Below are positions 19,442-37,246 of a stretch of DNA of 64,000 nucleotides, in pieces. Origin of the DNA: Lentimicrobium saccharophilum. GTDB taxonomy: Bacteria; Bacteroidota; Bacteroidia; Bacteroidales; Lentimicrobiaceae. Every line of letters starts with the position of its first letter. Position 1 is the stretch's first letter. The notes beneath the pieces are model-generated. The model was not told the origin of the DNA. It was given only the letters and a program-made list of their open reading frames with translations, and searched no databases. The translations under genes were made by a program, and so were the position numbers. Where the stretch lies: assembly GCF_001192835.1 (NCBI RefSeq), contig NZ_DF968183.1, positions 992,001-1,056,000 on the forward strand. The letters run 5' to 3'.

Positions 19442-22400
19442 TCATCTGACAATCGAAATTTTAACAGATTTTGAAGCCTGAAGCCCGGTTGCGCTATTAA
19501 CAACCAAGCGTCCGATATAAAAACCGGGATTTAACGGACGGCCCTGGTTATTGCGTCCATCCCATTCAAAAGCTGTTGTCCGGAAACCATCCGCAAAAAC
19601 AGTCCGGTTCAGCACTGCCACAGAAGCACCGGACAATGAAAAGATGCTCAGGGTCAACTCCAGATCCTGACCAGACTGATTATGGTCGAACTCAAACCTG
19701 GTAAAGTCATTCATGGGATTGGGATAAGCGTCGAAGCTTCCGATCACCATCTCGCCGGATGAAACAACATAAAAGGTAATGCTGGCATCCGCGGAGTTAT
19801 TGTTAACATCCCAGGTCTTCAATCTGAGGGTGTGCAAACCAGGCGAAAGATTTTTAAACGGAAATACAACCTTTCCACTCTGAAAAGTATTCAGGTCCGA
19901 TTGATAATACTCATTCAGAATATACGGACTATCTGTTTTTCCATCCAGAATGGCAACGATATCATGGCCTATGCCGTTGCCGATGGTGTTGATGCCGCTG
20001 ATATCCGCAAGCAGGGCAAGCATTACCGGATTCTCGTCGGTAAATCCGCCCGGCCGGAAATCGGTGTTGTTCATAAAAATGGATATCTCCGGCCCATCAT
20101 AATCATCCAGATTCTTATTGCTGATCCCTCCAATAACAATGTCAGTGTAGTACCCTGCAGCATCCTGCTCCCCGTTGGTGGCATAATAACTGATTTTCCC
20201 CTGACCGAACTGATACCCGATGTCGCGTGGGACAATAAAAGTCAAGCTGAAACGGCCATCCTCAACCATCACGTTGCCTTTATAAATAATATTTCTCCTC
20301 ACTGTAAATGACATTGAATTTGCCCCGTCACTTCCAAAAGTATTTATCTGGCTTTCCTTATCAAATACAATCGCTGTAACAACACCGTTAAATCCTGCAA
20401 GAATATTTCTGTCATTATCGGCTACAATTCCACTGATGGTTATTTCACCCAATGCCCTGAGTGTATCTGCATCACCGTTAACTGTGCGGCCGTTAATTTC
20501 TGTTGTAATAACATCATACTTTGGGTAAGCCATTTTCATTGCAGGGTCGCCCAGCAGCACAAACTTCTTACTGTTGGGATCTGATCCTGTCACCCTTTTT
20601 GAAATTCTGATGAGATCCCCGAGGAATGGCATACCATTGCCATCCGGTTTCAGGGCAATGTTGTAAAAATTGCGTGCAAGGTTGAAGTTGGGGGTTCCAA
20701 AAGTGGGTCTTGCCGTAGTAAACAATGCTATTCCGCCGCCCCGGGGATTCAGAAACACCAGTTCCCCTCCTGATCGCCTGAGCGGATCATCATAGCGGCT
20801 GAATTCACAGGTTGCCGTCATAAAGACCGGCAAACGGTCATAGTTGGTCCAACTGTTGATATCGGAAATTTCAAGAATCCGTTCGTGTGTCCAACCTGTT
20901 TCTCCTCCATGTCCGGTGTAATTTACAATCAGTGCACCCTTTTCCAACCGCTGGTTGATTGCGGCGGTTGCATCAGGGGCCCGCTGCCCGCCGGGAGTCG
21001 AAATCTGTGGATAAGCATCCAGAAATATTTTATCAATATTATATTTTCTATAAGTCGTGTCAATCATGGTTGCGATCTGGTCAGCCTGCCGCATATGCTC
21101 GTTACCATCGCCGTCGTCGGCAACAAATGCAATCATATTCCGCCAATCACCATGTACCGATTCGGCAGCGGTTGCATAATGTATAATCTTATCTACAGCC
21201 ATCCGGGCTTCTTCAGGCGTTGCAACCACAAGCCGGCCAACACCGATATCCATAATGTCTGTGGAAAAACCACCCTCATTGTCGTCAATACATCCGAAGA
21301 AATCGTCGGTAGCATAGGAAGTAACGGGATGAAGCGATTCAGGGGCCTGAAATGTGGGGATAAAGTTGGTATTACCTGCCAATCTGTCCTTATAATCGTA
21401 TGATGCATCACCAAAAAGCAGCATAAAGCGGGGTTTAATCCCTTCACCACCGCGATGCCAGAGCATCTTCATGAAATCGCGGATGGCACTGATATCCTGT
21501 GCACCTGAAGAAAACTCATTGTAAATAGCCTGTGGCTGGACAACAATAACACTAAAATCATTATGCTGGCTATGAAAAGCGGCCAGGCGAGCTGCTTCCT
21601 CCGCGAATAACGGATGAGTAAGAATTACCATATCGGCAGACCCCATTGAATGCAAATCCTGATTGGCAACCTGTTCAACAAAAACAGGTTTCAGGAAAGA
21701 AGATGCATCACTCAGGATATACTCCCTCAGTGTATCTGCCAGCGCCCTGAAAGTAAGGGTACCTGCAGAGACTGAGGGCTGAATGTAGCCGGGATTCAGG
21801 GGATCGGTAACATCCCACAGCCAGTCATGTGTTGTAGTCGTTGTTACCCGGTATTCAACAACATCCTGCAAACCGGTCTTTCTGAAAGCAAACTGGCCGC
21901 CACTGAAGTTCAGCATGGCTACTGCATTAAGCTCAATAAAATTCAGCCACCCGATCGCACTGTTTACCGGCTTATTATAATTGATTTTGAGACCATTGAA
22001 ACTACCGTTGTGCTCGATTTCGAATGTTTCAGTCGACATCCTGGCATAGTTGGTATTGAAATCAGTGATAATCGAAGGAATAAAAAGGTTAAATGTCTTG
22101 TCTGATGCTGCCAACGTAAAGAAACTCGCGGATGTCGAACGTGCTGCAGCACTCAGCCTGACCTGAAGAGGTCTGGATGTTTCAGGAACAAATGACTTAA
22201 AGGTATAGTCACGCGAAGTAATCAGATCGAAAATATCCCCGAACCATTCCTTACCCGATTTGATGAGGTTTACCTCGTCAGAATGATATGCATCATAGAA
22301 ATCAAATGAGTTCACGATGGTGGGTACGCCCGTCTGGGGCTGGGGGAATTCAGGAATTCGCCTGCCGGGAGTTGAGCCTGTCGTTATAAAATAATAGGAT

Positions 22401-23239
22401 TCATCTGAATAAAGATGGGGCTTATGTTCAAACAACCCGGATTGGATATTATACTTCCATGCCAGGGGCCCTTGTCCATAAAAAAGAAAATAATCGCCCG
22501 GATCAAATTTACCATCTCCGCCATCAATCACCATGACCGGGACCTCAGGCAGATCATCATATCTCGTTGCACCTGCCCGTTCAGGAAGCATACCTCCTCC
22601 ATACCCGTGAACCCTGATACCGGATGAAGAAAGGCCATTCACCATCACGCCCATCGCCGAAAGGTCATCATACGTAAGCTGTTGAATACCAGTCTTTTTC
22701 ACAGCAACCCTATACCAATCGCCTGCAGAAAGTACGGAAGAAGCTGTATATTGCCGGGATTCCATTCCACTTCTCTCATTGCCTCCTTCAACTTTCAGAT
22801 CAAAAGAAATCAGTTTTTCAATTACACCGGTCAACTTATTCCTTCTCAGCGGCACTAAATTTATTAAAAGACGACCTTCGCCCCGGTCATAAACTAACGT
22901 GGCATTATAATCAGATTCACCTGACCAGCTTGCTGAATCCGATTGATCAAATGCTTCTCTTTCAGCCATCGTCAACTCAGCATATTGCATGGAAGTGAAG
23001 CTCAGTTCAGGAAGCACATCAAAATGACCTTCAGCATAAAAGCTGTAAACAGGCAAGCCGGTTTCTTCAGTGTTGTAACACGATTCACAATGCAGCCAGT
23101 AGTGTTCAGTGTTGTCATCTGCCGGATGTCCGGCGTATGGCATATACCACTTAACGAAGTATTGCGCAGATAAATTCTCCTGCGGAAATATCAGATATAG
23201 AAACAAGATTGCACTGAATACTAAACGAATCGGGTTCAT
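19442..23239 (-). CDS. porU: PorU-like type IX secretion sortase, C25 (gingipain-fold) protease, copy 2
   Basis: A 1265-aa exported paralogue of the downstream gene. The signal peptide is M-N-P-I-R-L-V-F-S-A-I-L-F-L, ending at ENLSAQ. The C25 domain keeps the dyad His777 (NYTGHGGETGW) and Cys811 (MTATCEFSRY), spaced 34 residues apart exactly as in copy 1. The order of domains is the same, including the C-terminal DAYPNPMNDFTRFEF and GFYIGRLVV type IX signal. Most Bacteroidota carry one PorU, so which copy is the general sortase is unclear. The start is taken at the ATG 23237-23239, two codons inside the open frame, which itself opens on TTG. It is divergent from porP/sprF. Confidence 0.82.
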   Translation of the reverse strand: MNPIRLVFSAILFLYLIFPQENLSAQYFVKWYMPYAGHPADDNTEHYWLHCESCYNTEETGLPVYSFYAEGHFDVLPELSFTSMQYAELTMAEREAFDQSDSASWSGESDYNATLVYDRGEGRLLINLVPLRRNKLTGVIEKLISFDLKVEGGNERSGMESRQYTASSVLSAGDWYRVAVKKTGIQQLTYDDLSAMGVMVNGLSSSGIRVHGYGGGMLPERAGATRYDDLPEVPVMVIDGGDGKFDPGDYFLFYGQGPLAWKYNIQSGLFEHKPHLYSDESYYFITTGSTPGRRIPEFPQPQTGVPTIVNSFDFYDAYHSDEVNLIKSGKEWFGDIFDLITSRDYTFKSFVPETSRPLQVRLSAAARSTSASFFTLAASDKTFNLFIPSIITDFNTNYARMSTETFEIEHNGSFNGLKINYNKPVNSAIGWLNFIELNAVAMLNFSGGQFAFRKTGLQDVVEYRVTTTTTHDWLWDVTDPLNPGYIQPSVSAGTLTFRALADTLREYILSDASSFLKPVFVEQVANQDLHSMGSADMVILTHPLFAEEAARLAAFHSQHNDFSVIVVQPQAIYNEFSSGAQDISAIRDFMKMLWHRGGEGIKPRFMLLFGDASYDYKDRLAGNTNFIPTFQAPESLHPVTSYATDDFFGCIDDNEGGFSTDIMDIGVGRLVVATPEEARMAVDKIIHYATAAESVHGDWRNMIAFVADDGDGNEHMRQADQIATMIDTTYRKYNIDKIFLDAYPQISTPGGQRAPDATAAINQRLEKGALIVNYTGHGGETGWTHERILEISDINSWTNYDRLPVFMTATCEFSRYDDPLRRSGGELVFLNPRGGGIALFTTARPTFGTPNFNLARNFYNIALKPDGNGMPFLGDLIRISKRVTGSDPNSKKFVLLGDPAMKMAYPKYDVITTEINGRTVNGDADTLRALGEITISGIVADNDRNILAGFNGVVTAIVFDKESQINTFGSDGANSMSFTVRRNIIYKGNVMVEDGRFSLTFIVPRDIGYQFGQGKISYYATNGEQDAAGYYTDIVIGGISNKNLDDYDGPEISIFMNNTDFRPGGFTDENPVMLALLADISGINTIGNGIGHDIVAILDGKTDSPYILNEYYQSDLNTFQSGKVVFPFKNLSPGLHTLRLKTWDVNNNSADASITFYVVSSGEMVIGSFDAYPNPMNDFTRFEFDHNQSGQDLELTLSIFSLSGASVAVLNRTVFADGFRTTAFEWDGRNNQGRPLNPGFYIGRLVVNSATGLQASKSVKISIVR

Positions 23240-23275
23240 AGGCAATATTTCGGTTTAACGCCGGAAATTGAGACA

Positions 23276-23283
23276 CAAAATTA
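23276..23283 (-). promoter_or_regulatory. Possible -7 element for the porU pair
   Basis: The minus strand reads TAATTTTG, matching TAnnTTTG, 36 bases upstream of the porU copy 2 ATG. No TTG is found at the usual distance, so the promoter is only half supported. Confidence 0.35.
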
Positions 23284-23357
23284 AACTAATCATGCGGTGC
23301 TATCCGTATTAACACGTAATTTAAACATGAGGCAACAGAAATAGGTTCATCTATTCG

Positions 23358-23365
23358 TATATTTG
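23358..23365 (+). promoter_or_regulatory. Possible -7 element for porP/sprF and gldJ
   Basis: TATATTTG matches TAnnTTTG. Transcription would start near 23372 and give a leader of about 148 bases containing the hairpin at 23402-23427. A -33 TTG is not evident. Confidence 0.4.
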
Positions 23366-23401
23366 TAATGAAAACTGATATGCCTGATACACCGCTGGGA
23401 T

Positions 23402-23427
23402 AATAACGGATTGAGAAATCCGTTATT
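23402..23427 (+). promoter_or_regulatory. Perfect 11-bp leader hairpin with a GNRA-type loop, upstream of porP/sprF
   Basis: AATAACGGATT (23402-23412) and AATCCGTTATT (23417-23427) are perfect complements around the tetraloop GAGA, which fits the GNRA class. It lies 92 bases before the porP/sprF ATG. A T-run (about 23452-23458) occurs 24 bases further on, too distant for a standard terminator. It could be an mRNA stability or attenuation element; on the opposite strand it would lie upstream of the porU transcript. Confidence 0.5.
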
Positions 23428-23519
23428 GCAGGGGCTTGTCTGAATTTTGCATTTTTTTAAACAAGAGGCCGTCATTATTAAAATTATTCGTAATATTGGC
23501 TGCCGAAATTCATTACGAC

Positions 23520-24509
23520 ATGAGAATTAAGCTAAGCCTGATATTACTGCTGATTACAGCTGGTTTTTCAGGTATTTCGCAGGATGCCTCTTTTTCGCAA
23601 TACTATGGTAATCCGTTATATCTTAATCCTGCCCTGGCCGGTTCCAAAATCTGTCCGAGGCTAACCCTCAATTACAGGAACCAATGGCCGGGTATACCTG
23701 CCACTTTTGTAACCTATGCTGCTTCGTATGATCAATTTATCGATGTGGTTTCCGGCGGTATCGGACTTATGGTTATTTCTGAAGATATGGCAGGCGGGGC
23801 AATGAAAACAACCTCAGCCAGTGGAATGTACTCATTCAGGATGAATATTTCGAAAAACCTGACATTAAATGCCGGTTTTCAGGGAACTTATATTCAGAAT
23901 AAACTGGATTGGGATAAATTCATATTTGAAGACCAGTTGCTTGTTGGCGATATCAACAATCTTCCGCCTACCCAGGAAAGTCCTCCCGATCGCCTGAGTA
24001 TCGGTATGATTGACTTTTCCGCCGGCATGCTTTTCGGTTACAGGGAGCGATTGTATGGAGGCTTTGCCGCACATCACCTGAATCAGCCTGACAACTCCTT
24101 TTACAGTAATGGCGACAGTAAACTCCCCATGAAAATAACAGCCCATGCCGGTGCACTGATAGATATGCGACAGGGACTCAGCGGTGGCGAGGTTGAAGAT
24201 CTCAGCATTTCACCAAATATAATGTATCAGCAACAGGGTAAGTTTCATCAGTTGAATGTTGGTCTCTACCTGAATGTTTATCCTTTTGTGCTTGGCGCGT
24301 GGTTCAGGCACAATTTTGAAAATCCTGATGCAGTAATTGCACTGGTTGGTTTCCAGCATGCAAAATTTAAGGTCGGATATAGTTACGATTACACTGTTTC
24401 ACGATTAACCAATGCAACCGGCGGTGCTCATGAGGTTTCATTTGCATGGCAATTCGACTGCGGGCAGAAAACTTTCAAGCATAAGGCAATAAAATGTCCA
24501 AGATTTTAG
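23520..24509 (+). CDS. porP: PorP/SprF family type IX secretion outer-membrane protein
   Basis: A 329-aa outer-membrane beta-barrel. M-R-I-K-L-S-L-I-L-L-L-I-T-A-G-F-S-G-I-S-Q is a signal peptide, and the family hallmark FSQYYGNPLYLNPALAGS follows directly. The rest alternates amphipathic strands and ends with the barrel strand VSFAWQFDCG and a short tail. PorP/SprF proteins belong to the type IX apparatus or act as partners for individual large cargo adhesins. A longer frame starts at a TTG (23436), but the ATG at 23520 begins the signal peptide. It is followed after 32 bases by the GldJ-like gene; position next to porU and gldJ supports a core secretion role. SprF-type cargo specificity is an alternative. 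Confidence 0.85.
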   Translation: MRIKLSLILLLITAGFSGISQDASFSQYYGNPLYLNPALAGSKICPRLTLNYRNQWPGIPATFVTYAASYDQFIDVVSGGIGLMVISEDMAGGAMKTTSASGMYSFRMNISKNLTLNAGFQGTYIQNKLDWDKFIFEDQLLVGDINNLPPTQESPPDRLSIGMIDFSAGMLFGYRERLYGGFAAHHLNQPDNSFYSNGDSKLPMKITAHAGALIDMRQGLSGGEVEDLSISPNIMYQQQGKFHQLNVGLYLNVYPFVLGAWFRHNFENPDAVIALVGFQHAKFKVGYSYDYTVSRLTNATGGAHEVSFAWQFDCGQKTFKHKAIKCPRF

Positions 24510-24541
24510 TTAATAACAATCAAAAACAATAATTTCCGGAA

Positions 24542-26035
24542 ATGATCAGCTACAGAAACATCTATCTGAAGATCTTCTTCTTTGCAACCGTAACCTTTCT
24601 CGCATCTTCATGTGCCAAAGAATCCTCACGAACTACCGGATGGGAATACAACAATTCAAAAAACGGAGGATTTCAGGTTAATACCAAATACGGAGAGCAG
24701 CCGGTTGGCCCCGGGCTGAAACTGGTTGAAGGCGGCACATTCACCATGGGTCGCACCAGCGACAATCCAATGTATGACTGGGACAATATCCCCAGGAGGG
24801 TTACGGTGCCTTCTTTCTATATTGATGAAACTGAGGTTGCCAATGTGGATTATGTAGAATATCTTTATTGGTTAAGCCGTGTATTCGGAACCGATTATCC
24901 AGAGGTTTACCGCAAAGCACTGCCCGACACCCTGGTTTGGCGGGAAAAACTGGCGTACAACGAGCCCCTGGTTGAAACCTATTTCCGTCATCCGGCTTAC
25001 AGAAATTATCCTGTTGTCGGTGTCAGCTGGGTTCAGGCAAATGAATACTGCCTCTGGAGAACTGACCGTGTGAATGAAATGCTGCTTATTCGTGAAGGCA
25101 TCCTGGACTTTGACCCGGATCAGCGAAATGAAAACAATTTCAACACAGAAGCTTACCTGGCTGGCCAATATGAGGGACTTGTCAATAAGCCTTTGAAAGA
25201 TCTGAATCCCAGTGGAACAGGTGAACGCCGCGCCAGGCTTGAAGATGGTATTATGGTTCCGAAATACAGACTGCCGACTGAAGCCGAATGGGAGTTTGCC
25301 GCTTTGGGTCTTGTTGGTAACACCGTTTACGAGCGCATCGTTGAACGCAGGGTTTATCCCTGGAATGGAACCATCGTTCGTTCTGATCAGAAAAAATATT
25401 ATGGCCAGTTCCTTGCCAACTTCAAAAGGGGACGTGGCGACTACATGGGTGTAGCCGGCAGCCTGAACGACGGGGCAGACCTCCCTGCTGAAGTCGCTTC
25501 GTACTGGCCGAATGATTATGGATTGTACAATATGGCCGGTAATGTTGCAGAATGGGTACTTGATGTTTATCGCCCGCTTACTTTCGAAGACATGGCCGAT
25601 TATGCCCCATACCGTGGAAATGTCTTTACAACCAAAGTAACGGATGAAGAAGGCTTCCTTGCACCGAAAGACAGCCTTGGCCGGATTAAGTACCGCGAGG
25701 TGACCACTGAAGAAAGCAAAGACCGTTTCAACTACAGAAGCGCAAATCAGATCAACTACCTTGATGGTGATTATCAATCAACCATCAATCCTGACTGGAC
25801 AACCATACCCGCCGACAGCGTGAATACTACCAATATGATGTATGAATATGCCAAAACATCACTGGTATCCGACAAATCGAGGGTTTATAAGGGAGGATCA
25901 TGGAGAGATCCGGCTTATTATCTCAGCCCTGCTACCCGTCGTTACCTGGATCAGAATCTTTCTACCAATTATATCGGATTCCGTTGCGCCATGGGTAAGG
26001 TTGGAGGCGCTTACTCTTCGAGCAAAGGAAAATAA
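24542..26035 (+). CDS. gldJ: GldJ-like gliding/type IX secretion lipoprotein (SUMF1 fold)
   Basis: A 497-aa lipoprotein: the N-terminal segment ends in the lipobox-like LASSC (Cys near residue 24). The rest is a formylglycine-generating-enzyme (SUMF1/FGE-sulfatase) fold, shown by GGTFTMGR, PSFYIDETEVANVDY, YRLPTEAEWEFAALG, NMAGNVAEWVLD, VYKGGSWRD and the C-terminal GFRCAMG. GldJ and GldK/PorK share this fold without enzyme activity and form a ring with the secretion machine. Position beside porU and porP, and before murF, favours GldJ over GldK, which is normally followed by gldL, gldM and gldN; those are absent here. A strong terminator follows. Confidence 0.78.
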   Translation: MISYRNIYLKIFFFATVTFLASSCAKESSRTTGWEYNNSKNGGFQVNTKYGEQPVGPGLKLVEGGTFTMGRTSDNPMYDWDNIPRRVTVPSFYIDETEVANVDYVEYLYWLSRVFGTDYPEVYRKALPDTLVWREKLAYNEPLVETYFRHPAYRNYPVVGVSWVQANEYCLWRTDRVNEMLLIREGILDFDPDQRNENNFNTEAYLAGQYEGLVNKPLKDLNPSGTGERRARLEDGIMVPKYRLPTEAEWEFAALGLVGNTVYERIVERRVYPWNGTIVRSDQKKYYGQFLANFKRGRGDYMGVAGSLNDGADLPAEVASYWPNDYGLYNMAGNVAEWVLDVYRPLTFEDMADYAPYRGNVFTTKVTDEEGFLAPKDSLGRIKYREVTTEESKDRFNYRSANQINYLDGDYQSTINPDWTTIPADSVNTTNMMYEYAKTSLVSDKSRVYKGGSWRDPAYYLSPATRRYLDQNLSTNYIGFRCAMGKVGGAYSSSKGK

Positions 26036-28537: not shown

Positions 28538-28961
28538 AATTGCCGGAAAGACAAATAAACCCGGTTTACTCAACAGAAGGCCCGATAGGACTGAACTATT
28601 ATTGATTTTATGAGGGTAATCCCGATTCAGGGTTTGTTCGGTACAATTCTTATTGCGCTGATTACAAACCATTTAATCTTTTAAGCACTATCAAATGCTT
28701 AATCCGGGACGAAAACATCCAGGATCAATTTCCTTGCCTAAAAATTATGAACATTTGCTCATAATTATGTAATTTTGTTTGTGGTTTCAATTTCCTAAGC
28801 GGAAAGGGATTACCATCTTTATAGCAATCCATTATCGGACAGGCCCTGAGTTACTGAAAAGATTTGTTATCTTTGATAAGGCAGATGCCAGGATTTAACC
28901 TTTTAATCCAACTGCCTTAATCCGGCCATAAATTGAATCAATAATAATTGTAAAATACCAG
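28538..28961. other. Intergenic region before the copper-receptor operon
   Basis: About 420 bases. A 7-bp inverted repeat TTAAGCA/TGCTTAA (28681-28702, 8-base loop) could be a weak end signal for murF-anmK. A 24-codon hydrophobic reading frame (28610-28684) ends right at that repeat but has no independent support. TATCTTTG at 28868-28875 fits the -7 element and would start a leader of roughly 80 bases; TAATTTTG at 28770-28777 is a second match. No known riboswitch was recognised. Confidence 0.5.
28868..28875 (+). promoter_or_regulatory. Possible -7 element for the copper-receptor operon
   Basis: TATCTTTG matches TAnnTTTG and lies 86 bases before the receptor ATG. A clear TTG at the -33 position is missing, so either an alternative sigma factor or a weak promoter is possible. 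Confidence 0.35.
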
Positions 28962-31139
28962 ATGAGGAGGAATAGAACGAAAAGTTTTTTCGGAAACAGC
29001 AAACGGATAATAAGCGGTCTGATTGCAATTACCTCAGTATTCTTTATGCCAACAGCAGAAGTTGTTGCACAGCAAAAGGACAGTATTGTGCAATTACCGG
29101 TGTTTGAACTGACCGACACCTCTGTTTACCGCAGGATGCCTGTTTCAGTCATAAATGCAGGTTCACTTGAACAGATCAGGGAAGTGGATCTGGGAGAAAT
29201 TCTCAGGCGGCAACCAAATGTCAGCGGGATCCGGCGGGGAGGTTATGCGTTAGATCCCGTTGTAAGGGGATTCAGGTACTCGCAGATCAGCGTATTTCTG
29301 GATGAAGGGATTCATATTGAAGGGGGATGTCCCAATCGTATGGATCCGGTGCTCGCGCATATTGAACCTGAGCAGGTCAACAGTCTGGAGATTGTGAAAG
29401 GCCCCTATCTGCTGCAATACGGCCCTGCACCTTCAGCCAGCATTCATATAAAAACCAGACCTGATCAATCAGCATTTAACCGGGGCTTCCATGCAACCTC
29501 CCATACTGGTTTCGATGCCGGCAGGAACGGATTAAAACAACACATCAGCCTTCTTTTCTCTGCTGAAAAGGCATTCCTGAGTTTAGGCGGCGGGATAAAA
29601 GATTACGACAATTACACTGACGGCAATGGCAAAGAGTGGAATTCCTCTTTTACCAAGAAAGATATCTCGGCAGATGCAGGCTTCAGAACCGGTAAATCCG
29701 GATTCCTGATCCTTTCTTACAGAGGATCTTTTGGTAAGGACATCCTCTTCCCGGCCCTCCCCATGGATGAAACAATAGGCAATACCAATATCTTTTCCGG
29801 TTATTTCGAAAGATACGATCCGGCGAATCCTGAAAAACGGCTGACATTGTCGGCATATCATTCGAAGGTGTATCATGTGATGGATAACAGCTTCAGGCCG
29901 CAATACTCTCAGGTAGTTCCACCCTACAACGGCATCATGCAGGCAACCGCCATTGCCAATGCTTCATCTACAGGTGGCAGATTCTCCATCTCCTACCCAT
30001 TCAAAAGCCTGAATATGCTTCATGGAATTGATACCAGAATCACTACAAAGGACGGAACCAGAGATATGCGCATGATTATGATCATGGACGGGCAGGAATA
30101 TACCTCAGAGAAAAAAATCAACCTTTGGCGAGATGCGCTGATATTTAATACCGGGCTTTTTACCTCAGCAGTATTGAAAAAAGGAAAAACTGAAGCTTTT
30201 ATAGCGGCACGCCTTGATCTTAACCATGCTGAATCCGGAGATACGCTGATTGTTGCAAAGGAGGGTAATCTATGGTATAAAAGTACGCCCGTAAACCAGT
30301 TATTATACAGTATATCCGGAAACATCACCTACAGACTGACAAAAAAAACAACTATAGGCGTGGGGTTGGCAAGAAGCCAGCGTGCTGGAGATATGCAGGA
30401 AAGGTATATAAAATTCCTTGCAACCGGGTTCGACCGTTACGACTATTTGGGCAATCCGCTGATAAAACCTGAAACTAATCATCAGGCCGACCTTATGCTG
30501 ACCTACAGGCCAGGGAAAGCACAACTACTTGTGAATTTGTTTATTTCAAGAATTGACAACTATATAACAGGCGTATTACTTCCGCCGAATGTTGCCCGGC
30601 CATTGAGTCAGGGCGCGCCGGGTGTTAAACAGTTCGGAAACGTTGATGCGGCAGTTTTTACAGGGCTTGAAGCATCACTTTCATGGATACCATTTAAAAA
30701 TTCCAATATCGGGGTCTCTGGGGCCTATACATTTGCCTACTTCACCAAAGCTGAAAAAATCATCCTCGAAAACAACCAACTGGCCGGAACAGAAGTAATT
30801 AAAAATGATCCGGTACCGGAGATCCCGGCCCTGGATGCCACAATGATTTTCTCATACAAATTCCGGAAACCCCGGTTAAAACCCCAATTAACCGTAAGGG
30901 CTGTTGCAGCGCAAAATCATGTATCTATTTCTTATTATGAAGAAAAGTCCCCGGGGTATGTGATTACCGATCTGGCATTGAATTATTACCCGCACAAATC
31001 AGTTTCACTCTCAGCCGGCGTAAGTAATCTCTTTGACATCGCCTGCTACGACCACCTCAACCGCAGATTGCTTGGGAGCAATGAGAAATTGTATGAACCG
31101 GGCAGGTCATTTTATATCAATCTCAAAATTAAAATTTAA
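28962..31139 (+). CDS. oprC: TonB-dependent copper receptor (OprC/NosA-like)
   Basis: A 725-aa outer-membrane receptor. A signal peptide ends near AEVVAQ, a plug domain spans about 50-165, and a 22-strand barrel ends with an aromatic-containing final strand (SFYINLKIKI). The plug carries GGCPNRMDP with Cys123 and Met127 (C-x3-M), and an early barrel loop has YHVMDN with His305 and Met307 (H-x-M). These are the copper-binding elements known in OprC of Pseudomonas and conserved in the TonB-copper receptor family. Copper or a copper chelate is therefore the likely substrate, imported with energy from TonB. No N-terminal signalling extension is present. The MbnP-like gene follows after 15 bases. 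Confidence 0.85.
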   Translation: MRRNRTKSFFGNSKRIISGLIAITSVFFMPTAEVVAQQKDSIVQLPVFELTDTSVYRRMPVSVINAGSLEQIREVDLGEILRRQPNVSGIRRGGYALDPVVRGFRYSQISVFLDEGIHIEGGCPNRMDPVLAHIEPEQVNSLEIVKGPYLLQYGPAPSASIHIKTRPDQSAFNRGFHATSHTGFDAGRNGLKQHISLLFSAEKAFLSLGGGIKDYDNYTDGNGKEWNSSFTKKDISADAGFRTGKSGFLILSYRGSFGKDILFPALPMDETIGNTNIFSGYFERYDPANPEKRLTLSAYHSKVYHVMDNSFRPQYSQVVPPYNGIMQATAIANASSTGGRFSISYPFKSLNMLHGIDTRITTKDGTRDMRMIMIMDGQEYTSEKKINLWRDALIFNTGLFTSAVLKKGKTEAFIAARLDLNHAESGDTLIVAKEGNLWYKSTPVNQLLYSISGNITYRLTKKTTIGVGLARSQRAGDMQERYIKFLATGFDRYDYLGNPLIKPETNHQADLMLTYRPGKAQLLVNLFISRIDNYITGVLLPPNVARPLSQGAPGVKQFGNVDAAVFTGLEASLSWIPFKNSNIGVSGAYTFAYFTKAEKIILENNQLAGTEVIKNDPVPEIPALDATMIFSYKFRKPRLKPQLTVRAVAAQNHVSISYYEEKSPGYVITDLALNYYPHKSVSLSAGVSNLFDIACYDHLNRRLLGSNEKLYEPGRSFYINLKIKI

Positions 31140-31154
31140 CTAAATCCGGCGAAT

Positions 31155-31946
31155 ATGCGACCCAACTATAAAATACTTGTTTTACTCATGGCCATTTCGA
31201 TGATCGCATGCACCGAAAAAGATCCTTCTGCATCTGAAAACGGATTAAAAATTATTTTCAGCCATCAGGTAGATAATGAACCGCTGATTACCGACCAGAT
31301 GATTTATGAAAACGCGGCCGGAAATCCCTATGAAGTGACCGAGATCATGTATTTCATTTCAGATCTGACACTTTACCACAGCGACGGCAGCGTCATCAGA
31401 CCATCAGATTGGGAAGACATCCATTACACCGATACCAATATTCCCGAAACACTGGAGTGGCTTGCCGGGAAAAATATACCAGCCGGGCATTACGACAGCC
31501 TAACTTTCACATTCGGCCTGTCCGAAGAGCGGAATGAATCGTTTATGTTTGTAAACCCGCCTGAAGTCAACATGGTATGGCCTGAAGTACTTGGAGGCGG
31601 ATACCATTATCTCATGCTGAACGGATGGTGGGAAGATCTTCAGGGAGTCAGACAACCCTATAATTTCCACCTTGGCATCGGACAGATATATGAAAATAAT
31701 TCCGGACTGGTGCCTGACATCACCGGATTTGTTCACAATTATTTTACTGTAAATCCAAACGGGGGACCTTTTTATATAGCGGCTGAAGGCATTTCGGAAT
31801 TAACCCTGACCATGCATATTGAAAGCTGGTTTGAGACACCCTTCATATACGATCACAACCAATGGGGTGGAGCAATCATGCAGATTCAGGATGCAATGTA
31901 CATTGGCAGTATGAACGGAAGGGATGCATTTTCGATTAAACAATAA
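31155..31946 (+). CDS. MbnP-like copper-associated lipoprotein
   Basis: A 263-aa predicted lipoprotein: M-R-P-N-Y-K-I-L-V-L-L-M-A-I-S-M-I-A-C, with the lipobox Cys near residue 19. The body matches the MbnP-like pattern. It has GLKIIFSHQVDNEPL near the start, then VTEIMYFISDLTLY, AGHYDSLTFTFGL, MVWPEVLGGGYHYLMLNG and FHLG, and it ends with a beta segment containing LTLTMHIESWF. MbnP proteins accompany methanobactin and copper-uptake receptors and bind copper through His and an oxidised Trp. Candidate ligands are the GGYH histidine and neighbouring Trp residues. Directly downstream of the OprC-like receptor, it probably hands over copper at the outer membrane or periplasm. Confidence 0.8.
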   Translation: MRPNYKILVLLMAISMIACTEKDPSASENGLKIIFSHQVDNEPLITDQMIYENAAGNPYEVTEIMYFISDLTLYHSDGSVIRPSDWEDIHYTDTNIPETLEWLAGKNIPAGHYDSLTFTFGLSEERNESFMFVNPPEVNMVWPEVLGGGYHYLMLNGWWEDLQGVRQPYNFHLGIGQIYENNSGLVPDITGFVHNYFTVNPNGGPFYIAAEGISELTLTMHIESWFETPFIYDHNQWGGAIMQIQDAMYIGSMNGRDAFSIKQ

Positions 31947-31994: not shown

Positions 31995-32540
31995 CTAATC
32001 ATAGTACGGGCAATCCCTTCCGTTACGCATGCCCGGCCCCCTGCGACCTGGCTTCATATTAACATCGTTCCGGCCTCTGCCATAACCACGCCCGCAATTG
32101 TTATCGTACCAGGTTTTCTGCTCATCATTCAGCAATGCCTTGATGCTGCGACGGTGTGCTTCCCTTTCTTTCATGATGTCACCGCGAAGTTTTGATATCT
32201 CGTCAATAGCGTTATCTATGGCCTTTTCATCTTGTTTTTCAGCAAGCTGAAGGGTACGTAACCTGGCCTGTTTCTCTCCGATTTCTGCACGCAACAATTC
32301 CGCTTTGCGAAAATGTGCAGTTCTCAGCTTTTCAATGCTGGTTTTCTGCTCATCAGTAAGACCGGGAATATCTTCAGCCCAATAGCCTTTGGCAGGACGT
32401 TGCATTTCCTGTCCCCCTCCGGGTCCGTATCCTCCTCTGAAACCCCGGCCAGGTCTTTGGGCTGAAAGGTCAGCTGAAGTAACGGTTAACATTACCATTC
32501 CGGCAATAAGGGCGATTAATTTCATTTTGTTGATTTTCAT
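31995..32540 (-). CDS. Spy/CpxP-like periplasmic LTxxQ protein
   Basis: A 181-aa exported protein: M-K-I-N-K-M-K-L-I-A-L-I-A-G-M-V-M-L-T-V then cleavage near LSAQ. The mature part is helical and charged. It contains GLTDEQKTSIEKLR and a second ALLNDEQKTWYD, the paired LTxxQ motifs of the Spy/CpxP group. Both ends are Gly/Arg/Met-rich (GRGFRGGYGPGGGQEMQRP and a tail with M-K-P-G-R-R-G-P-G-M and a Cys). Members are periplasmic chaperones or metal-stress proteins. It is the last gene of the sigma / anti-sigma / sensor operon, 63 bases after the sensor, so metal-linked envelope stress is the likely trigger. Confidence 0.8.
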   Translation of the reverse strand: MKINKMKLIALIAGMVMLTVTSADLSAQRPGRGFRGGYGPGGGQEMQRPAKGYWAEDIPGLTDEQKTSIEKLRTAHFRKAELLRAEIGEKQARLRTLQLAEKQDEKAIDNAIDEISKLRGDIMKEREAHRRSIKALLNDEQKTWYDNNCGRGYGRGRNDVNMKPGRRGPGMRNGRDCPYYD

Positions 32541-32603
32541 AACATTAAAATTTGACTGTTGAAAAAAAAGTTAGTTTGCAGTTTATTGGTTTGTCAGTTT
32601 TCA

Positions 32604-33140
32604 TTATCGTCTGCCACGGCGAAACCGGTGTCCCTCTCCCCGGCCGGCCGGCGGAACATCGCCCTTCAGCAACTCATGATAGAATAACACGAGTTCATCC
32701 CGCTGTTCAGGTCTGGCAATGTTCCATACATCGCGCATATGCCCAACCGTTTTTAATTTGATTTCTCCGTGAATATCTCCTATTAAAAAGCACAATTGTT
32801 CGATTCTGAGAGAATCGGGATGATCTTTCATCACTTCAGCTATCAGTTCTCCGTTCAGATCCTTTAATTCGGCAAACAAAGGAGCTACTAAGTCGCGCTG
32901 TCTGAGCCTGGAATCATGGAACTGCATGGCCTGATTTTCATCAAAACCGGCTTCACGGATTATCATAGCCGGCCGGGGCCTGTTCCTTTCCCACATAAAC
33001 ATACTGCTGTCTGATTTTTGATCCGTAGCCGTTTCAGTTTGTCTCACTTTATAATAAACGGTAAATACAGCTGCCAGGTTAATGACAGTCAGTAGGATAA
33101 TCAAAAGCAGTATAATCCTGCTGGTTCTTGCAGTTATCAT
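32604..33140 (-). CDS. CnrX-like periplasmic heavy-metal sensor
   Basis: A 178-aa protein anchored by one N-terminal membrane helix (about residues 9-31) with a periplasmic helical domain. Its plan (anchor, then helical hairpin with QAMQFHDSRLRQRDLVAPLF and a C-terminal E-Q-R-D-E-L-V-L-F-Y-H) resembles the CnrX/heavy-metal-sensor branch of the CpxP fold. Several Met and His residues could bind metal (MFMWERNR, HDSR, GHMRDVW, GEGHRF). In the CnrYXH scheme the sensor binds metal and releases the sigma factor from its anti-sigma partner. It overlaps the anti-sigma gene by 4 bases (ATGA). The metal is inferred from the neighbouring copper genes, not shown. Confidence 0.75.
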   Translation of the reverse strand: MITARTSRIILLLIILLTVINLAAVFTVYYKVRQTETATDQKSDSSMFMWERNRPRPAMIIREAGFDENQAMQFHDSRLRQRDLVAPLFAELKDLNGELIAEVMKDHPDSLRIEQLCFLIGDIHGEIKLKTVGHMRDVWNIARPEQRDELVLFYHELLKGDVPPAGRGEGHRFRRGRR

Positions 33141-33619
33141 TTATCCTCGTTTTTTTCGTTATCAAAAAAATACGTTTCCAGCCGTTCAAGTGAAGCTTCC
33201 TGCTGCATGATTTCCTGCGCATAGGCTTCCTGCAAGCCGGAAGCTGCATCTTCCCGAACAACATAACCATTGAAAAAAGGCACTAATACCCTGCTTCCAA
33301 GCCATATTCCAAGGAAGACTGCCGCAGCAAGGCCGGTGAGAGAGGTACCAAACTGAAAGGTGTTTATTTTTAACCAGCCATGCTCGAAACGGTTGGCTTT
33401 ACCGGCCCTTAACCTGCTTATTACATTGTAATAGAATTCGGGGTTTTCTTCAGTAACCCTTTCAGCAGCAACAACCTGAAAGGCTTCTGAATATAATTCA
33501 GAAAACCTGCGGCAGGTAATGCATTCCTGAAGGTGCCGGTCCAAATCCGGATTGTACTGCCGCACATCTGCAGAGGCAGTGTAATCAAGGATTAATTTTT
33601 GAGCATCACGGCATTTCAT
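33137..33619 (-). CDS. Zinc-finger (zf-HC2) anti-sigma factor
   Basis: A 160-aa membrane-spanning anti-sigma factor. The N-terminal cytoplasmic part has the H-x3-C-x2-C zinc motif (LDRHLQECITCRRF, about 27-40), which clamps ECF sigma factors. A transmembrane helix follows at about 93-112 (TSLTGLAAAVFLGIWLG), then a periplasmic tail with Q-E-A-S-L-E-R-L. It lies between the sigma factor and the metal sensor, 50 bases after the former and overlapping the latter, as expected for a sigma / anti-sigma / sensor set. Confidence 0.85.
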   Translation of the reverse strand: MKCRDAQKLILDYTASADVRQYNPDLDRHLQECITCRRFSELYSEAFQVVAAERVTEENPEFYYNVISRLRAGKANRFEHGWLKINTFQFGTSLTGLAAAVFLGIWLGSRVLVPFFNGYVVREDAASGLQEAYAQEIMQQEASLERLETYFFDNEKNEDK

Positions 33620-33669
33620 CTGACTAAGCTTTTAAGTTTGACACAAATTGCGCTGATTACTTGCGCATA

Positions 33670-34239
33670 TTAAAGATTCTTATAATTTTTCAGTTTTTTC
33701 TGCAAGTTAATTTTTGCCCTGTGGATCAATGATTCCACTGCCGGGAGGCTGACCTGCATGACTTCCGCAATTTCAGCATAAGGAAGTTCTTCGAATTTAT
33801 TCAGCGTAAAAGCAACCCTTTGGTTCTCAGGCAGACTGTCAATTGCAGATTTCAGCAAATGCCTCAACTCATTTGACTCCAGTTGATTATCCTCTGTATA
33901 TGGTTCCCCGGATTTATGATTATCAACATCATCTGCCAGTCCGAACACTGCTCCGATTTCATACAGAAACCGTTTCTTCCTGTTGTTCCTGATGTGGTTC
34001 AGCGATCTGTTCACGGCAATGCGGTAGAGCCAGGTGCTGATTTTTGAATCCCCCCTGAAGCGGTGCGCATTTTTCAAGGCTTCCACAAATACATCCTGGG
34101 CAATATCTTCAGCATCTTCATGGTTGTGCAACAGGCCGAGACATACATTGATGACCTGCAGTTGATGTGTCTTAACCAAAAACCGCCCCGCTTCAGGGTC
34201 TCCGGCAGCAAGGCCTGAAATCAATTCACTGTCGGTCAT
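33670..34239 (-). CDS. ECF RNA polymerase sigma factor
   Basis: A 189-aa ECF sigma factor. Region 2 is visible as LLHNHEDAEDIAQDVFVEALKNAHRF and STWLYRIAVNRSLNHIR (about 36-80). Region 4 is SLPENQRVAFTLNKFEELPYAEIAEVMQVSLPAVESLIHRAK (about 125-175). The linker between them is long and acidic (DDVDNHKSGEPYTEDNQ). It heads an operon with a zf-HC2 anti-sigma, a CnrX-like sensor and a Spy-like protein, so it should switch on metal-stress genes, probably including its own operon. Its targets may include the facing copper genes, which is inference. Confidence 0.9.
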   Translation of the reverse strand: MTDSELISGLAAGDPEAGRFLVKTHQLQVINVCLGLLHNHEDAEDIAQDVFVEALKNAHRFRGDSKISTWLYRIAVNRSLNHIRNNRKKRFLYEIGAVFGLADDVDNHKSGEPYTEDNQLESNELRHLLKSAIDSLPENQRVAFTLNKFEELPYAEIAEVMQVSLPAVESLIHRAKINLQKKLKNYKNL

Positions 34240-34495: not shown

Positions 34496-34837
34496 ATGAA
34501 ACCCCGGAACAGAGCAATATATTTTATTTTATTGATTGCTACGTTTTATCTGTCGTTGCATGTGACTTATCCTGATTTGCAGGGAGATCATCTCTGCGAC
34601 TCAGAGCTTGTTTACGGACAGAAAACATTCGCACTCCTGCCCATATGCCCCGAAAACAGGGAAACCGGATTTGAGAAAACCCCGCTAAGTCAGGAAAATT
34701 CAGCACCTGATGTTTTTCTCAAACCCCGCTATTATTATCAAAGACTCTTAAATCTTTTACCTGGGATCTTCCGGACTAAACTCACCTTCCCTGAATCAAC
34801 AGAGCTTCTCAATCTTTTCTGTGTATTGAGGATATAG
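34496..34837 (+). CDS. Hypothetical exported 113-aa protein
   Basis: Not recognised. The 113-aa product begins with two basic residues and a hydrophobic stretch (residues 8-24), which could be a signal peptide or a single anchor. The remainder is polar, with two Cys in the middle (DHLCDSE, LLPICPEN), an aromatic PRYYYQRLLN, and a C-terminal Cys. It is divergent from the sigma-factor gene (256 bases apart) and has a promoter-like element directly upstream. No metal-binding cluster is obvious. It may belong to the copper island or to the following TonB genes. Confidence 0.5.
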   Translation: MKPRNRAIYFILLIATFYLSLHVTYPDLQGDHLCDSELVYGQKTFALLPICPENRETGFEKTPLSQENSAPDVFLKPRYYYQRLLNLLPGIFRTKLTFPESTELLNLFCVLRI

Positions 34838-35233: not shown

Positions 35234-35953
35234 ATGATTTCAGGAATTCTTCTACAAATCACCCAGCCCGCGGGGGCCATTGCAGACACGCTTGTTTCCG
35301 GAGCTTTACCGGTTGAAGCCGCCGGAGAGATTAAACTTTCAATCTGGGAACTTGCCCTGAAAGGTGGCTGGATTATGTTGCCACTGGCACTGATGTCGCT
35401 TTTTGCCGTGTATATTTTTATTGAAAGATATATCATAATCAACCGGGCATCCCGCGAAGAAAACAATTTCATGAACAATATCCGGGATTTTATCCATAAT
35501 GGAAGGATCGATTCAGCCTTATCCCTTTGCAAAAACAATCATAGCCCGATTGCCCGAATGATAGAAAAGGGAATAATCAGGATTGGCAAACCGCTGAACG
35601 ATGTCAATGCCGCGATTGAGAATGTCGGCAAGCTTGAAGTCGCCAAACTTGAGAAAAATATAGCAGGACTGGCAACTGTTGCCGGAGCGGCTCCCATGAT
35701 AGGATTTCTTGGCACTGTAATCGGCATGGTCAGGGCATTTTACGATATGTCCATGGCAGGAAACAACATTGATATCGGTTTGCTGTCGGGTGGTATCTAC
35801 CAGGCGATGATTACCACAGTTGCCGGTCTCATTGTTGGTATTATTGCTTACATCTGCTATAATATCCTTGTCGCAAGGGTTGAAAAAGTTGTTTTCATTC
35901 TCGAGGCCAGGGCTACCGAATTCATTGATTTATTGCACGAACCGGCATCCTGA
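35234..35953 (+). CDS. exbB: MotA/TolQ/ExbB proton channel family protein
   Basis: A 239-aa inner-membrane protein of the ExbB/TolQ family with three membrane helices: about 45-67, about 145-167 and about 185-210. The family signature AGAAPMIGFLGTVIGMVRAF spans the start of helix 2. The N-terminus contains an extra hydrophobic stretch before the first helix. With ExbD it forms the proton-driven motor that energises TonB. It starts the exbB-exbD-tonB run, with gaps of 47 and 52 bases. Because it lies 3 kb after the copper receptor, it could power that receptor, though general use is equally likely. Confidence 0.9.
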   Translation: MISGILLQITQPAGAIADTLVSGALPVEAAGEIKLSIWELALKGGWIMLPLALMSLFAVYIFIERYIIINRASREENNFMNNIRDFIHNGRIDSALSLCKNNHSPIARMIEKGIIRIGKPLNDVNAAIENVGKLEVAKLEKNIAGLATVAGAAPMIGFLGTVIGMVRAFYDMSMAGNNIDIGLLSGGIYQAMITTVAGLIVGIIAYICYNILVARVEKVVFILEARATEFIDLLHEPAS

Positions 35954-36000
35954 ATCTCAGACTGATTCTATTTCTTTAAACTGATTTTCATCAGAAAACT

Positions 36001-36414
36001 ATGGCAATCAAATCCAGAAATAAAATAAATGCGCAGTTCAGCACAGCATCCATGTCGGATCTGGTTTTCCTGTTGCTGATCTTTTTCATGCTTACATCCA
36101 CACTGGTAAGTCCCAACGCCATCAAGCTGCTGTTGCCATCCAGTTCAAGCAAGACAATGGCCAGGCAGTCGCTTACAGTATATATTGATGCAACGAACAG
36201 CTATTTTGTTGAAGAAACCCCGGTAAATCCGGAGTTTCTCGTCGAAACAATCGGGAATAAACTCCAGGGGCAACAGGATGCATCAGTTGTGCTCAGAGCC
36301 GATCAGCAGGTTCCGGTTCAGTATGTTGTTACCCTGATCGATGCAGTCAACCAGGTAAATGAACTTACCAATACAAGGCATAAAGTAATTCTTGCCACCA
36401 AGCCGGCCAAATGA
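36001..36414 (+). CDS. exbD: ExbD/TolR biopolymer transport protein
   Basis: A 137-aa protein with one N-terminal membrane helix and a periplasmic domain. The helix begins with SMSDLVFLLLIFFMLTS, whose Asp is the conserved proton-carrying residue of ExbD/TolR. The periplasmic part has the usual VLRADQQVPVQYVVTLID. It is 47 bases after exbB and in the same direction. The N-terminal tail is short and basic (K-S-R-N-K-I-N), as in the family. Confidence 0.9.
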   Translation: MAIKSRNKINAQFSTASMSDLVFLLLIFFMLTSTLVSPNAIKLLLPSSSSKTMARQSLTVYIDATNSYFVEETPVNPEFLVETIGNKLQGQQDASVVLRADQQVPVQYVVTLIDAVNQVNELTNTRHKVILATKPAK

Positions 36415-36466
36415 ACCCTGAAATTGTGGCAGTATTTTTGTTATAAATTCCGGACAGACTGATCGT

Positions 36467-37246
36467 ATGGACAGAGATAAAATAAAGGGCCTAGCGGGAA
36501 CGGTGATATTTCATGCGTTGCTGCTGGTCATGCTTATCTTTCTGGCTTTGCGGACTCCCCTTCCACTTCCTGAAGAAGCCGGAGTTGAAGTAAACCTGGG
36601 CTATTCCGATGAAGGCATGGGCGAACTGCAACCCCGTGAACTGGCCACGGGAGAAGCTATTCCCGCCCCTTCCCAGCCTGCAGCGTCAAATGAGGATATT
36701 GTAACAGACGACTCAGAGGAAGTACCTGCCATACAACCGGTAAGAAAAGAAAAACCGGCCGAGGTTGTAAAAACCGAGTCTAAGCCGGCTGTAAAGCCGG
36801 AACCCAAGCCCAAACCGCAACCGGTTGTCAATCCGGATGCTATGTATAAGCCCAAGCAGGGCACTTCAAGTCAGGGAGGCAATCAGGGTACAACCGGGAA
36901 ACCGGGCGATCAGGGGAAACCCACCGGAGATCCGGATGCACAGGGGTATGACGGAATTGGCGGTGCCGGTGGCGGCGTTTCCTTTAGTCTTGAAGGACGC
37001 ACCCGCAGACAAATACCTCCGCCGCCCAATACTTTCCGTGACAGGGGAACCGTTGTGGTTACCATCTATGTAAACAGAGCCGGAGAAGTAACCCGTATCA
37101 ACGCACCTTCCAGGGGTAGTACGACTTCAAATGCCGAACTTATCCGTCTTGCAAAGGAGGCAGCTATGAAAGCCCGTTTCAGTGCTAAAGAAGATGCCCC
37201 TGAAGAACAAAGGGGAACGATTACATATATTTTCGAGTTGAACTAA
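36467..37246 (+). CDS. tonB: TonB-family energy transducer
   Basis: A 259-aa protein with a short cytoplasmic N-terminus, one membrane helix (about 11-29), and a long Pro/Glu/Lys-rich periplasmic stretch (about 85-125). A Gly-rich linker follows (about 130-170). The C-terminal TonB-like fold has VVTIYVNRAGEVTRI near residue 191 and ends in RGTITYIFELN. It would link the ExbB/ExbD motor to TonB-dependent receptors such as the copper receptor. The C-terminal domain diverges from canonical TonB, as is frequent in Bacteroidota, so a TolA-like role cannot be ruled out. Confidence 0.85.
   Translation: MDRDKIKGLAGTVIFHALLLVMLIFLALRTPLPLPEEAGVEVNLGYSDEGMGELQPRELATGEAIPAPSQPAASNEDIVTDDSEEVPAIQPVRKEKPAEVVKTESKPAVKPEPKPKPQPVVNPDAMYKPKQGTSSQGGNQGTTGKPGDQGKPTGDPDAQGYDGIGGAGGGVSFSLEGRTRRQIPPPPNTFRDRGTVVVTIYVNRAGEVTRINAPSRGSTTSNAELIRLAKEAAMKARFSAKEDAPEEQRGTITYIFELN

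Follow-up and report, generated by a model that had tools for sequence, protein, structure and literature searches.

An OprC-type receptor gene and an MbnP-family lipoprotein gene with an unlinked MbnH gene in a Lentimicrobium-like member of the Bacteroidales

The receptor and lipoprotein genes

The window, the entire 64-kb stretch of DNA that was analysed, originates from a Lentimicrobium-like member of the Bacteroidales. It contains an ORF that encodes an OprC-type receptor followed, on the same strand and after a gap of 15 bp, by an ORF that encodes an MbnP-family lipoprotein (Table 1). The original prediction had described an OprC-like copper receptor and an MbnP-like lipoprotein in a member of the Bacteroidota, and both family assignments and the host are supported. 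The receptor has the Pfam domains PF07715 and PF00593, with a plug at residues ~60-156 that is followed by the barrel. Its top NCBIfam match, to TIGR01778 (TonB-copper; 210 bits, E 6e-62), lies below the 472-bit cut-off and the receptor is therefore classed as OprC-like rather than as a TIGR01778 equivalog. The top sequence match in the PDB, identified with phmmer, is OprC (6fok; E 8e-30) and, when the AF2 model of the receptor (pLDDT 78) was used in Foldseek searches, the top 28 matches were all OprC, with E-values down to 4e-38.

The C-x3-M and H-x-M motifs noted earlier can be read directly in the DNA and, in the phmmer alignment to 6fok, Cys123, Met127, His305 and Met307 align with Cys143, Met147, His323 and Met325, the residues that are the copper ligands of OprC (PMC8610252). 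All four are invariant in the 50 MbnP-linked receptors, with the query counted, as also are His133, Met268 and His698, whereas 3 of 14 distant receptor relatives do not have the four ligands, and their presence here is therefore not attributable to chance. As judged from its sequence and model, this is an OprC-type TonB-dependent copper receptor, with copper import as the predicted function. The fold, the order of the domains and the CxxxM plug and HxM barrel ligands are as in Pseudomonas aeruginosa OprC (6fok/6z8y; PMC8610252) but the two proteins are ~20% identical, with the score below the TIGR01778 equivalog cut-off, and the receptor described here is co-encoded with an MbnP lipoprotein.

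The product of the second ORF matches the Pfam MbnP family (PF20243) with an E-value of 1.9e-18 and 67.5 bits (gathering cut-off 27) and has a lipobox, MIAC, in which the lipid-modified Cys is residue 19. An MbnP with 97% identity is encoded by a Lentimicrobium sp. of the same genus. With the AF2 model (pLDDT 86), the only Foldseek matches at E <= 0.001 are to six chains of the Methylosinus trichosporium MbnP 7l6g (E 2e-8 to 4e-7), and with TM-scores of 0.5-0.56 this match is distant. A direct sequence search from the MbnP ORF recovered no solved MbnP, and a weak match was obtained solely via a distant WxW-type relative. The TIGR04052 (MbnP_like_WxW) score is 19.6 bits, far under the 140-bit cut-off, a threshold passed by none of 297 sampled Bacteroidota genomes. 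The WxW motif is not conserved, the sequence being W142-P-E144, with the second Trp replaced by Glu or, in some relatives, by Asp (WxE/D).

A GGYH motif, highlighted in the original prediction, is present within GGGYH, and Gly147, Gly149 and His151 are invariant in 24 MbnPs. His151 is, however, not kept in WxW-type members, in which this segment is GYIF or GYLF, and the informative residue is instead Trp142, at the position of the first Trp of WxW. Trp142 is invariant in 24 order-level MbnPs and, in distant Bacteroidota MbnPs, corresponds to the first Trp of WxW; these distant proteins could be aligned, although only weakly, with MAWNW of 7l6g. His172, like Trp142, is invariant in 10 of 10 sequences in a wide alignment that included WxW types. 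In M. trichosporium, Manesis et al. (in 2021) are reported to have found that MbnH converts the first Trp of WxW to kynurenine, with the copper coordinated by one His, one Met and solvent.

In Bacteroidota, C-X-K-(D/E)2 is a signal for lipoprotein export to the cell surface (PMC5080379). The residues that follow the lipid-modified Cys in MbnPs are Lys-rich at +2/+3 and Asp/Glu-rich at +4/+5, and so resemble this signal. For the query MbnP, the sequence is CTEKDP, a partial resemblance and not an exact match, and a surface-export signal was not assigned.

Table 1. Locations of genes and sequence features. Positions are in the window unless preceded by a locus or genome identifier.
Feature	Position	Strand	Comment
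Type IX secretion-like genes (PorU-like, PorP-like, FGE-domain GldJ-like)	19442-26035		conserved beside this locus in the genus
Palindrome	about 28743-28766		~215 bp upstream of the start of the receptor ORF
OprC-type receptor ORF	28962-31139	+	725 aa
Plug ligands for copper, Cys123 and Met127 (C-x3-M; CPNRM)	29328-29342	+	predicted; aligned with OprC CPNRMD
Cys123 codon	29328-29330	+	read in DNA
Met127 codon	29340-29342	+	read in DNA
Barrel ligands for copper, His305 and Met307 (H-x-M; HVM)	29874-29882	+	predicted; aligned with OprC HIMDN
His305 codon	29874-29876	+	read in DNA
Met307 codon	29880-29882	+	read in DNA
MbnP-family lipoprotein ORF	31155-31946	+	263 aa
MbnP Trp142	31578-31580	+	predicted kynurenine precursor; conservation and alignment
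MbnP GGGYH motif, residues 147-151	31593-31607	+	noted earlier as GGYH
MbnP His172 (HLG)	31668-31670	+	candidate copper ligand; conservation
ECF sigma, putative anti-sigma factor and two Spy/CnrX-like proteins	31995-34239	-	convergent to the pair
113-aa ORF, apparently secreted	34496-34837	+	no known family; oriented divergently to the ECF sigma gene
ExbB-ExbD-TonB	35234-37246		conserved neighbour in the genus
MbnH	L049:1315-2517 = G000:C1:1897913-1899112		other contig; 400-aa lipoprotein
~120-aa lipoprotein	L143:6596-6955, L149:6526-6894, L174:6355-6720		about 19 more loci
~130-aa NLC...SCCKGKC protein	L144:4160-4552, L159:3935-4327, L147:4141-4533, L137:3-401, L135:1022-1399		small membrane protein
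NifX-like protein	L114:4128-4517, L119:4366-4758, L121:4298-4699, L126:4417-4815, L145:4444-4839, L156:4482-4847		His-rich

MbnH is encoded elsewhere in the genome

The genome was searched for MbnH and for MbnB. The earlier statement that there is no MbnH is correct for the window but not for the genome, in which an unlinked MbnH is encoded on a different contig. There are two MauG-family proteins, of which one has M. trichosporium MbnH (6e1c; 9.7e-44) as its top PDB match, followed by a di-haem peroxidase (1.4e-29), and the other is an ordinary CcpA-type peroxidase (1.5e-88 to 6qkn/CcpR, 1e-36 to 6e1c). The MbnH has two CxxCH motifs, and Tyr327 occupies the position of the CcpA Met, at which MauG-type enzymes use Tyr. 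With 206 bits it falls under the 363-bit cut-off of TIGR04039, as do MbnP-adjacent MbnHs from other Bacteroidales (215 bits). The gene stands alone amid unrelated genes and is not adjacent to mbnP, in contrast to the situation in many other Bacteroidales. The absence of a methanobactin gene, also noted originally, was upheld genome-wide for MbnB. No match to an MbnB (PF05114)/MNIO-family gene was found in the genome, two control genomes being positive, and methanobactin production by this organism is therefore unlikely.

Distribution of MbnP, MbnH and the receptor

Co-occurrence was evaluated in 60 genomes, including that of the query organism, with a threshold for the receptor of at least 37% identity to the query. 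MbnP is present in 23 of these and a strong MbnH in 22 of the 23, so that 22 genomes have both, 1 has MbnP only, 3 have MbnH only (two of these being incomplete assemblies) and 34 have neither. Outside the genus the corresponding numbers are 7, 0, 1 and 33 (7/7 versus 1/34; Fisher p = 3.6e-7). The one exception, G006, is an 89% complete genome from the same genus in which MbnP and the receptor are present and MbnH was not found. Of the 23 MbnP genomes, 16 have the receptor, which was not found in any of the 37 genomes without MbnP. Three genomes of the genus (G007, G010 and G018) have kept MbnP and MbnH and lost the receptor at the locus, with a 30%-identity relative encoded elsewhere only in G010, and the receptor is therefore not obligatory for MbnP.

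In 79 readable named MbnP loci, a receptor gene is upstream on the same strand in 49, MbnH is downstream in 27 and both are present in 20. The receptor-MbnP gap is less than 40 bp in 19 of the 49 receptor-bearing loci, and MbnP-MbnH occurs with no receptor at six (L133, L153, L166, L172, L182 and L188). The commonest full order, found in many other Bacteroidales, is receptor – ~120-aa lipoprotein – MbnP – MbnH. As the receptor and MbnP genes are together and MbnH is elsewhere, the cluster is split in the genus of the query organism.

Proposed function and alternatives

With an unlinked MbnH encoded in the genome, the pair does not appear to function alone but to represent half of a copper-uptake system that is widespread and has been little studied. 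We consider it probable that copper is captured by the receptor in conjunction with a kynurenine-type Cu(I) lipoprotein that is matured in trans by MbnH. The OprC-type receptor would bind copper at the CxxxM-HxM site and import it with energy provided via TonB. The co-encoded MbnP, located at the outer membrane, would hold Cu(I) at a site that requires oxidation of Trp142 to kynurenine, a reaction that would be catalysed by the MbnH di-haem enzyme encoded elsewhere on the chromosome. MbnP could feed the receptor, if it is surface-exposed, or take copper from the receptor, if it is periplasmic, and expression is presumably responsive to copper. Counted against this mechanism are the MbnP score, far below the TIGR04052 cut-off, the Glu in place of the second Trp of WxW, the loss of the receptor at the locus in G007, G010 and G018, the failure to find MbnH in G006 and the lack both of a regulatory site common to the receptor and MbnH genes and of a clear copper client (see below). 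A search of the literature found no experiments on any Bacteroidota member of the system.

The pair resembles M. trichosporium MbnP (7l6g) and MbnH (6e1c) in fold, in the position of the kynurenine-precursor Trp and in having an MbnH partner in the genome but differs in that the genes are not in a methanobactin operon, WxE/D replaces WxW, MbnH is unlinked and the receptor is OprC-type rather than MbnT. The CorA/CorB and MopE/SACCP systems of methanotrophs, like the system proposed here, have a copper-binding envelope protein, a Trp converted to kynurenine and a MauG-like di-haem partner; the accessible text of the source (PMC3912023) describes the copper sites of CorA and MopE as kynurenine plus two His, and reports no receptor beside either system. 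No marked sequence similarity of CorA or MopE to MbnP has been reported (PMC3621798). Bacteroidota pairs of the BtuG/BtuB type (PMC6143338) also have a TonB receptor co-encoded with a lipoprotein, but the ligand and the protein family are different, and the surface location of BtuG-type lipoproteins is only a possibility for MbnP.

A more elaborate arrangement, which we offer tentatively and regard as rather unlikely, is that MbnP and MbnH, with the ~120-aa lipoprotein in relatives, form a surface-exposed lipoprotein assembly on the OprC-type receptor. A di-haem enzyme at the surface would then install the kynurenine, enabling MbnP to scavenge copper outside the cell and pass it to the receptor, and the assembly would be a copper counterpart of BtuG/SusD pairs.

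Copper might, alternatively, be imported bound to a chalkophore, synthesized by this or another organism, rather than as an ion, with MbnP and MbnH acting together on the chelator as has been suggested for methanobactin operons. MbnP/MbnH pairs do occur in such operons and near MbnT-like receptors (PMC3621798), and CrtA, from another family of copper receptors, imports chelated Cu(II) (PMC12914433). We consider this unlikely, given that an MbnB/MNIO-family gene is absent from the genome and that, in 50 of 50 receptors, the ligands match those of OprC, an importer of ionic copper. It is quite improbable that MbnP and MbnH work separately in the periplasm, to buffer copper or as a redox device, with the receptor a neighbour by chance or in loose association. 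Consistent with such a role, MbnP genomes lack the receptor (7/23) more often than MbnH (1/23), and there are the receptor-less MbnP-MbnH loci listed above, but the frequent location of the receptor gene upstream on the same strand, often within 40 bp, and the absence of this type of receptor from the 37 genomes without MbnP argue otherwise. That the receptor and MbnP acquire copper with no MbnH and an unmodified Trp, the stand-alone pair originally envisaged, would fit the absence of MbnH from the locus in this genus, the departure from WxW and the gene content of G006, but is very improbable with MbnH encoded in the same assembly and adjoining MbnP in many Bacteroidales, the near-complete MbnP-MbnH co-occurrence and the invariance of Trp142.

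Uptake by OprC-type receptors is already known, and both MbnP/MbnH pairs outside methanobactin producers and isolated pairs near MbnT-like receptors were reported in 2013 (PMC3621798). In the literature searched, we saw no account of a Bacteroidales cluster that includes an OprC-type receptor, of a WxE/D MbnP or of the MbnH-MbnP split in this genus. Copper transport across the outer membrane is understood in few cases, and MbnP and MbnH have been studied mainly in methanotrophs. The Bacteroidales cluster of receptor, MbnP and MbnH links these two lines of research, provides many natural methanobactin-free cases and makes a role in uptake for kynurenine copper sites directly testable. With adjacency as the sole criterion, a partner such as the unlinked MbnH is missed.

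Copper clients, upstream sequences and neighbouring genes

A haem-copper oxidase is encoded in the genome of the query organism and in all 19 genomes of the genus. Outside the genus it is not associated with MbnP (both in 2 genomes, MbnP only in 5, oxidase only in 15, neither in 19), so that 5 of 7 MbnP genomes have no oxidase and there is no clear copper client. NosZ was also rejected as a client, as there were just CuA-domain matches far under the cut-off.

No regulatory site common to the upstream regions of the receptor and MbnH genes was found. A palindrome, AATTATGA-N8-TCATAATT, located upstream of the receptor gene, is nearly intact at the same place in the two closest relatives only and was not found at the MbnH loci. 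A scan of 45 upstream regions gave 4 occurrences of ATGA-N8-TCAT versus 0.8 expected, with 3 of the 4 from this lineage. The palindrome was rejected as a regulatory link between the receptor and MbnH.

The block of ECF sigma, putative anti-sigma factor and Spy/CnrX-like genes, with a Metal_resist domain (PF13801) in the last Spy/CnrX-like protein, is kept beside the pair in most of the genus and is possibly an envelope or metal-stress regulon. Neither this block nor ExbB-ExbD-TonB was retained as part of the system, as the pair occurs without both in G008 (L033). Most of the genus has an ORF of similar size at the position of the 113-aa ORF.

Several small proteins are encoded at related loci. 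The ~120-aa lipoproteins end in [VI]SG-x-[VI]P and have no Pfam match above the cut-off; none was found in the genome of the query organism, in a search that had no positive control. In another Bacteroidales group, the receptor gene is preceded by a gene for a small membrane protein of ~130 aa, also with no Pfam match above the cut-off, that has a conserved NLC...SCCKGKC stretch, a possible copper-binding motif. In genomes of the query genus and in others, a His-rich NifX-like protein is encoded just upstream of the receptor, with PF02579 present in the two tested, and in the own-genus cases it has the C-terminus CC(S/R/H)H.
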